64,000 bases of DNA, taken from positions 35,002 through 99,001 of the forward strand of contig MGAN01000018.1 of the NCBI GenBank assembly GCA_001789745.1, read 5' to 3'. The notes under the pieces were generated by a model, which was not told the origin of the DNA, searched no databases, and was given only the letters and a program-made list of their open reading frames with translations. Below are positions 39,679-41,485 of the stretch, piece after piece. Every line of letters starts with the position of its first letter. Positions within the stretch are counted from its first letter, which is position 1. A program made the translations under genes and the position numbers. The stretch comes from Candidatus Roizmanbacteria bacterium RIFCSPLOWO2_01_FULL_40_13. Its GTDB lineage: Bacteria > Patescibacteriota > Microgenomatia > UBA1406 > GWC2-37-13.

Positions 39679-39805
39679 TGATACTAGCTAAATTAAAGCC
39701 CTTTACCTGAATCTTAACTTATCAAAATATATATTGTCAAGTGTAAATTAACCACTCCAAAGCTTTGTAACGCTAATCACAAAATTTGCGGCGCCTTTAA
39801 ATTTG

Positions 39806-40016
39806 TGCCGCAGGAGGGAGTCGAAACCTCATGAGGTTGCCCTCAGAGGTTTTTGAGCGGACGTAAAACGTCCACTATAGCCTACGCGCTTGCCCCGTGT
39901 GGGCGAGGAGGGAGTCGAACCCTCACGGTATTTACATACCACAAGTTTTTGAGACTTGCCTGTATACCAGTTTCAGCACTCGCCCTTTCGGGGCCTACCG
40001 GTTCCGCCACCGCGGC
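39806..40016 (-). pseudogene. Split tRNA-Leu-like gene enclosing an intact tRNA-Leu
   Basis: 5' GCCGCGGTGGCGGAACCGGTAGG (40016 downward) and 3' ...CTCAAAAACCTC-TGAGGGCAACCTCA-T-GAGGTTTCGACTCCCTC-CTGCGGC-A; outer acceptor strands GCCGCGG/CTGCGGC pair over 7 positions. Confidence 0.6.
39900..39985 (-). tRNA. tRNA-Leu(CAA)
   Basis: GGGCGAG...CTCGCCC-A; anticodon arm CAAGT-CTCAAAA-ACTTG; GAGGGTTCGACTCCCTC T-arm. Confidence 0.92.
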
Positions 40017-40045: not shown

Positions 40046-41305
40046 TTAATACAAAACTCTAAATCTGATTGTGTCGGGTATTTTTCTTAATTCCTGCAAA
40101 ACTTTTTGGTCATATTTTTTATTCACATCGGTGATCGCATATCCGATTTTAGCATTTGTTTTCAAATATTGGGATAAGATATTTAATTTATACTTAGCCA
40201 TGACGCCATTCAGATTTGCCAAAATACCCGGCACATTCTTATGCAGATGCAGCAATCTATGATGTTTTTTTTTCTTACTAAATCTAATATTGGGTATATT
40301 CGGGCTCCCTTGTGTGTCGCCTGAATTAATATAAGAGATAATTTTTTTGCTAATTTCTTTATCACTGCCTTGAAATACGGCTATACCACGCAGGGTTAAA
40401 AAATCAAGGTAAAATTTTTTGTCTGAATCGGCCAGGATTCCAACCGTATTAAGCCTAGGCATTTTTATTAATCGTTGTCTGGTTCTGGTTGAGAGATTAT
40501 TTACCACTGCTATTTGAGTCTGATGTGCCGTCTTTTCTCCAATCAAAGCGTAACCTTCACGGGTAAATAATTTCTCAATATTGGCTTTGTTTGTCACCGG
40601 TAAATGTGCTTTTATTCTGTTTTTGGGATATGAGAGCGAACTCGGGATTCTATTCACGAATAAAAATTCATCAAAATTCGGAGCTTCATGATCGGCATTT
40701 TTTACCACAGCTTCCCGCCTGATATTCTCAGTGAAAGCAACGAAATGTTTGGCTGCACCCATTGCTTTGATCTGATAATCTGTGAATCCGTCGCCAACTA
40801 CTATCACTTCGCCCCGAAGGCCTAATTTTATAACTGTTTTTACTTTCCCGTCCTTTTTAGATAAAGGGTTATTTTTATCCAACCCGGTTATTTTTCCAAA
40901 TTTGTCAAGCCGAAAGCTGTTGGCGAAGACATTGTCCGGGTTAAGAGAAAATGGCTTGACTATAGGCAGGATAAACTCCTTGAAACCCCCGGATATAATA
41001 TAGATATTTTCTTTATATTGCCGGAAAAATTGACGGTTTCTTTTTATCGATGGTGATATTTTTCCTCGGAGAATTTCTACTACTTTATAAATATGAAGCT
41101 TATTGCCGTGGAGCAGTTTTAACCTTGTTGCGAGACTTCGATCAAAAGAAATCCTCCCTTCCATACCGAGATTGGTAATTTTTTTGATTTGATTAATTAT
41201 CTTTTTCCTGTTTGGATTATTAGCGAGCGCAACTGAGGCCAATTCCTCCAATCCTTCACTTTGTACAAAAGTTGAATCAAAATCGATGATAAAGTATTTT
41301 ATCAT
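40046..41305 (-). CDS. HAD phosphoserine phosphatase-like domain fused to SerA-derived C-terminus (ACT)
   Basis: N-term FIIDFDSTFVQSEGLEELA, VVGDGFTDYQ; C-term HHRLLHLHKNVPGILANLNGVMAKYKLNILSQYLKTNAKIGYAITDV...IPDTIRFRVLY matches SerA ACT pattern. Confidence 0.85.
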   Translation of the reverse strand: MIKYFIIDFDSTFVQSEGLEELASVALANNPNRKKIINQIKKITNLGMEGRISFDRSLATRLKLLHGNKLHIYKVVEILRGKISPSIKRNRQFFRQYKENIYIISGGFKEFILPIVKPFSLNPDNVFANSFRLDKFGKITGLDKNNPLSKKDGKVKTVIKLGLRGEVIVVGDGFTDYQIKAMGAAKHFVAFTENIRREAVVKNADHEAPNFDEFLFVNRIPSSLSYPKNRIKAHLPVTNKANIEKLFTREGYALIGEKTAHQTQIAVVNNLSTRTRQRLIKMPRLNTVGILADSDKKFYLDFLTLRGIAVFQGSDKEISKKIISYINSGDTQGSPNIPNIRFSKKKKHHRLLHLHKNVPGILANLNGVMAKYKLNILSQYLKTNAKIGYAITDVNKKYDQKVLQELRKIPDTIRFRVLY

Positions 41306-41445
41306 ATTAAAAAACCTCCCTTGCGGGAGGAATGCTTGATTGGTAATCGGTTTATTTTTTGCTTATCAGGAGGTCCTCCCCCAAGTAATAATTTCCGGAA
41401 GAACTCTGGGGAGAGTAATTATTCAAAACGTCTATTCTATTATTC
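41305..41445 (-). promoter_or_regulatory. Putative Ser-leader transcription attenuator
   Basis: Leader ORF plus mutually exclusive pairings CTCCCC/GGGGGAG, GGGAGG/CCTCCC and terminator CCTCCCGCAAGGGAGG-TTTTTT immediately before the structural ATG. Confidence 0.7.
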
Positions 41446-41448
41446 ATG
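41353..41448 (-). CDS. Putative leader peptide (31 aa) with Ser-rich stretch
   Basis: MNNRIDVLNNYSPQSSSGNYYLGEDLLISKK*; codons TCT CCC CAG AGT TCT TCC. Confidence 0.6.
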
Positions 41449-41485
41449 TTGATATAATGGTATCAAAGAAACTATTTTTGTCAAT

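Follow-up and report, generated by a model that had tools for sequence, protein, structure and literature searches.

A conserved leader peptide and candidate serine attenuator ahead of serB and one-carbon genes in Microgenomates

The leader and its pairing segments at the SerB-type locus

The window analysed is a 64,000-nucleotide stretch of a Candidatus Roizmanbacteria contig. The candidate regulated gene encodes a SerB-type HAD phosphatase fused to a remnant of SerA (PGDH) and an ACT domain, so that the phosphoserine-phosphatase-like gene described in the first-pass annotation is borne out. The protein has no PGDH NAD-binding domain; compared with the 628-residue SerB-SerA fusions of relatives, about 190 residues over this domain are missing, and the C-terminal SerA-type ACT domain is retained. 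The 425-residue protein at locus L061 has an identical architecture. The product of 40046–41305 could have arisen from such a bifunctional enzyme and be a phosphatase under regulation by serine. The features of the locus, all on the minus strand, are as follows.

40046–41305, minus: candidate regulated gene, SerB-type HAD phosphatase with SerA remnant and ACT domain
41309–41320, minus: arm 4, GGGAGG with T6 tract, intrinsic terminator
41325–41330, minus: arm 3, CCTCCC, forms the antiterminator with arm 2 or the terminator with arm 4
41352–41447, minus: leader ORF MNNRIDVLNNYSPQSSSGNYYLGEDLLISKK, 31 codons and stop (ATG at 41447, stop ending at 41352)
41373–41384, minus: arm 2, TTGGGGGAGGAC, starting at nt 64 of the leader
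41397–41405, minus: Ser codons 15–17 (AGT TCT TCC), with Ser12 the proposed regulatory codons
41405–41416, minus: arm 1, ACTCTCCCCAGA, on codons 11–15
41409–41447, minus: core codons 1–13, MNNRIDVLNNYSP, conserved in relatives
41457–41462, minus: -10-like hexamer TACCAT, 9 nt 5′ of the leader ATG
41479–41484, minus: -35-like hexamer TTGACA, promoter-like site

Further along the same strand, 39800–39900 holds a second tRNA 3′ half-like stretch (ctcaaaaacctctgagggcaacctcatgaggtttcgactccctcctgcggcac) right after tRNA-Leu(CAA).

The 31-codon ORF is present as annotated, with its ATG at 41447 rather than 41448, and it carries TCT CCC CAG AGT TCT TCC (Ser in four of six codons). All four pairing segments are found where they had been described; the arm 1 segment located within the leader ORF is CTCTCCCC. 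The terminator lies directly ahead of the serB-type gene, as had been claimed: the hairpin CCTCCC-GCAA-GGGAGG-T6 ends at 41309 and the structural ATG is at 41305. The promoter-like site has the spacing TTGACA-16-TACCAT. TTGACA is also found upstream of 15 of the 23 terminator-type leaders described below, and the -10 element of the relatives most often ends 5–10 nt ahead of the leader ATG. The leader transcript would thus have a very short 5′ UTR or none at all.

Folded as a single sequence, the window leader is not special when compared with shuffles (z = 0.24), and we discarded such folding as uninformative; the case therefore had to rest on comparison. The 2:3 pairing of the window has -16.9 kcal/mol, where shuffles give -9.7 ± 2.4 (p about 0.01); this pairing and, above all, its conservation in relatives are above chance. 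The unremarkable fold is what would be expected of a short ORF that happens to precede a constitutive terminator or a non-regulatory hairpin. This explanation is contradicted by every comparative result given below (pairing, pN/pS, geometry and covariation), and we give it almost no credence. Rfam scans gave no match at gathering scores and only chance-level matches at E values up to 10. A serine T-box was rejected since these scans contained no T-box match, and the serC RNA element (RF00517) since its covariance model did not match.

A family of leaders with a conserved peptide core

A protein search of relatives recovered the leader again ahead of serB genes, with a shared peptide start and different DNA; the peptides begin MNPRVNVLNNYSPQSCSS and MNPRVKILNNYSPQSSS, and one short leader, L062, reads MNPRVNVLNNYSPHTT up to its stop codon. 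Pattern searches yielded 36 distinct leaders, all from Microgenomates, namely Ca. Roizmanbacteria and its relatives. The search of the order covered 83 genomes, among them 72 genomes of the family, and allowed up to two mismatches; under the same conditions the reversed pattern gave 0 matches, as it did in a second control. Most named records belong to Candidatus Roizmanbacteria; the labels Woesebacteria, WWE3 and UTCPR1 occur on single records. No leader was found in about 350 genomes of the phylum outside the class, where one extra match (L110) was rejected because the core is not encoded. Spurious matches lay inside long ORFs, contained in-frame stops or did not encode the core; these were L027, L034, L037, L038 and L049, from the first loose pattern, and L102, L108, L110, L221 and L222. 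Further members can readily be searched for with the shared core peptide as a tag. Near one leader-bearing locus, L101:299–580 on the minus strand matches a Group I intron in Rfam (58 bits).

The core MNxRxxxxNN[YF]SP is common to all 36 leaders, with SP lost in one (L091); the family consensus of codons 1–13 is MN[PSD]R[VT][ND]xxNN[YF]SP. N2, R4, N9, N10 and Y/F11 were built into the search pattern, which by itself accounts for part of their invariance. When Ser12-Pro13 was left unconstrained, SP still came up in 27 of 28 true leaders. Tyr11 is replaced by Phe in eight leaders. For the 35 leaders other than L091, which was left out for want of SP, pN/pS is 0.04 over codons 9–13 and 0.27 over codons 2–13, whereas the other two reading frames of the same DNA give 1.01 and 1.20. 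Synonymous sites in the core are close to saturated and the amino acids are nonetheless retained, so selection on the core acts at the level of the peptide. Conservation at the RNA level instead was rejected, as third codon positions vary freely. This peptide-level selection across relatives indicates that the leader ORF is translated.

Two leader classes and the alternative pairings

An intrinsic terminator stands between leader and gene in 23 of the 36 leaders and is absent from the other 13. Among the leaders with a terminator, Ser accounts for 66 of the 138 residues at codons 14–19 (7 of 37 in the other class), and at least two Ser are found there in 22/23 leaders, as against 2/13 of the terminator-free ones. 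The exception is L050, a terminator-type leader of folC with no Ser after Ser12. The run is found in terminator-class leaders of serB, of thymidylate synthase (2/2) and of folC (1/2), and in the one Vut_1 leader of this class. It uses TCN and AGY codons alike, so a pyrimidine-rich RNA segment alone would not explain it. The relatives thus do show the conserved Ser codons that alignment had been proposed to reveal. The first-pass annotation had also taken Ser-poor homologues as evidence against attenuation. Such leaders make up part of the family, namely most of the 13 without a terminator; the terminator class points the opposite way.

Within the 23 terminator leaders, 2:3 pairing exceeds dinucleotide shuffles with a median p of 0.01 (Fisher p 3e-20), and arm 2 favours the arm 3 of its own leader over those swapped in from other leaders (permutation p 5e-5). 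The 1:2 pairing is weaker (median p 0.16, Fisher 6e-5). As the leaders share ancestry, these pooled p-values overstate independence and are indicative only. When the leaders are aligned on the terminator loop, column -4 of arm 3 is T in 13 leaders, where the partners are A/A, and C in the other 10, where they are G/G; column -3 changes from C to G with matching partners in L055 and L057, and column -5 is T with A/A partners in three leaders. Arms 2 and 4 both track arm 3, so both alternative helices are maintained; these are the compensatory changes that the attenuator reading had called for. Of the mutually exclusive pairings originally proposed, 2:3 is thus upheld by shuffles and swaps, and 2:3 and 3:4 together by covariation; 1:2 has at most moderate support.

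The geometry is fixed. Arm 2 starts 57–64 nt from the leader ATG in 23/23 leaders (mean 60.4 ± 1.8 nt). Its standard deviation of 1.8 lies below the 15.8 obtained from shuffles and below that of the stop codon (10.9), which ranges from nt 57 to nt 96 while the start of arm 2 stays in place. A ribosome paused at codons 12–16 would cover arm 1 and leave arm 2 free, given the size of its footprint.

GGGAGG of arm 4 lies 9 nt ahead of the gene ATG, a Shine-Dalgarno distance. The 3:4 hairpin could on this ground do nothing more than hide the ribosome-binding site of serB, to be freed by the position of the leader ribosome, and at L104 an AGGAGG lies in what resembles a hairpin, with no terminator called there. 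Several relatives carry a GGCGGGG-type arm 4, which is a poor Shine-Dalgarno sequence, and keep the T tract; purely translational control is accordingly improbable in our judgement.

The 13 terminator-free leaders keep the core. Eleven have no Ser pair, and most end 1–5 codons past SP; many of their spacers are C/T-rich and G-poor, a trait of Rho-type leaders. The Ser codons are therefore not the whole story, and in this class the peptide itself may matter. The main alternative to serine attenuation is that NN[YF]SP arrests the ribosome as a nascent chain, with stalling at or just after Pro13 prompted by a candidate small molecule that could be folate, serine or some other metabolite of one-carbon pathways, much as the ribosome on TnaC stalls in response to tryptophan. 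The terminator class would then have acquired its Ser run later, and stalling in the short class would block Rho or act directly on translation. This would account for a core conserved far past what regulatory codons require and kept where terminator and Ser pair are both absent, for the distance of arm 2 from the core, which is fixed whatever the position of the stop, and for the C/T-rich spacers. It leaves the Ser codons that accompany the terminator in 22/23 leaders without a need if the ligand is other than serine. We regard arrest as a possible but doubtful explanation of the element; it could also coexist with serine attenuation.

Downstream genes, proposed regulation and known systems

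The leader precedes serB or serB-serA in 23 cases (for L079, L085 and L101 the SerB call comes solely from a motif and low Pfam scores), thymidylate synthase in 4, Vut_1 in 4 and folC in 3. The three latter genes follow L050, L053, L056, L058, L063, L066, L076, L086, L088, L099 and L109; at least one thymidylate synthase (L053) has a PterinBD-DUF4346 domain. The remaining two leaders are L091, with a decayed core and ahead of a NUDIX gene, and L104. At L104:1500–1650 the leader reads MNSRVDVYNNFSPQKSLS up to its stop, and the arms apparently sequester the AGGAGG ribosome-binding site with no terminator formed. The gene order leader-folC-glyA is found in G001 and G005. In G024 the leader, serB, folC and thyA form a single same-strand run, and in G011, G020 and G091 thyA is divergent from leader-serB. 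Serine hydroxymethyltransferase is encoded in 69 of the 72 family genomes. The simplest common thread of the target genes would be serine as the one-carbon donor for dTMP, and the gene set appears to mark a serine/folate/one-carbon regulon. This goes beyond the first-pass reading: the leader is not confined to serine biosynthesis, since it heads folC-glyA, thymidylate synthase and Vut_1 genes as well.

Vut_1 adjoins folC in most of G016, G035, G061 and G084–G088 (loci L113–L120 and L126), and 7 of the 20 Vut_1 genomes, several of them incomplete assemblies, have no match to tRNA-guanine transglycosylase (TGT). Both points suggest that the substrate of Vut_1 is related to folate rather than to queuosine. 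Queuosine sensing, raised by the N, D, Y and H codons of the core and by the Vut_1 target, was set aside because the other targets are folate and serine genes, Phe11 is present in eight leaders and several Vut_1 genomes are without a TGT match.

Ser enrichment, 2:3 pairing and covariation in the terminator leaders support the Trp/His-type logic that the first-pass annotation had applied to serine. The element is probably a ribosome-mediated transcription attenuator with serine as its signal. Transcription would start at the leader ATG or just ahead of it. We infer the ribosome stall, the serine signal and the direction of regulation. When serine, and hence charged tRNA-Ser, is short, the ribosome would slow at Ser12 or Ser15–17 and occupy arm 1. 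Arm 2, starting near nt 60, would then pair with arm 3, the terminator would be blocked and serB transcribed; in this antiterminated state GGGAGG of arm 4 would be free to serve as the ribosome-binding site of serB. With plentiful serine the ribosome would pass through arm 2, which would be masked or re-paired with arm 1. Arm 2 being unavailable, the 3:4 terminator would form and transcription would end just ahead of the serB ATG. The end of arm 2 in the window is 18 nt ahead of the leader stop codon, so a ribosome at the stop may leave arm 2 uncovered, and termination in the window would then rely on 1:2 pairing or on timing.

In the related genomes the same leader would control serB or serBA, folC-glyA, thymidylate synthase and the Vut_1 transporter; with a common leader on these genes, serine supply would set one-carbon and thymidylate capacity. 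If this is true, Microgenomates, for all the reduction of their genomes, have a regulon coordinated through RNA in which the synthesis of folate and dTMP is tied to the supply of serine. A broader proposal, which we put forward tentatively, is that MNxRxxxxNN[YF]SP represents a kind of regulatory nascent peptide not described before, by which Microgenomates sense their one-carbon status (serine or a folate) on the ribosome. Such a peptide would govern the serine/folate/thymidylate regulon in two ways: by intrinsic termination where a Ser run is present, and by a second mode that needs no terminator.

The leader resembles the trp, his, leu, thr, ilv and pheA attenuators in its short ORF, where codons for the amino acid product are clustered, in its mutually exclusive antiterminator and terminator, and in a terminator placed directly ahead of the structural gene. 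It differs from them in the use of serine, in the conserved N-terminal core peptide, in being leaderless or nearly so and in additionally heading folate and thymidylate genes. With TnaC-type arrest leaders it shares a conserved short peptide, a near-terminal Pro and, in the short class, a possible link to Rho; unlike these, most members combine an intrinsic terminator with a run of Ser codons. We know of no sequence relation to TnaC. We found no leader-peptide attenuation described for Patescibacteria, for serine or for thymidylate synthase and folate genes in the open-access literature. The list of attenuated operons in the introduction of PMC1183508 comprises trp, his, leu, thr, ilv and pheA, and serine is absent from that list.

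The 13-member class resembles the Mycobacterium cys leaders in the parts of PMC1262725 drawn on here: a conserved leader, no intrinsic terminator and a pyrimidine-rich spacer, the poly-pyrimidine tracts having led those authors to suggest Rho. The mycobacterial leaders differ in that their Cys codons lie near the stop and that they are actinobacterial, and those parts of the paper describe no terminator-bearing sister class with the same peptide. The serC RNA element RF00517 (PMC1273637) likewise stands ahead of serine biosynthesis genes and has a GNRA-loop hairpin by the start codon, but it is alphaproteobacterial, has two stems and has no leader peptide. In B. subtilis, UCN-codon sensing in sinR (PMC3862929) also reads serine limitation as slow translation of Ser codons, although it acts inside a coding gene and uses no attenuator RNA.
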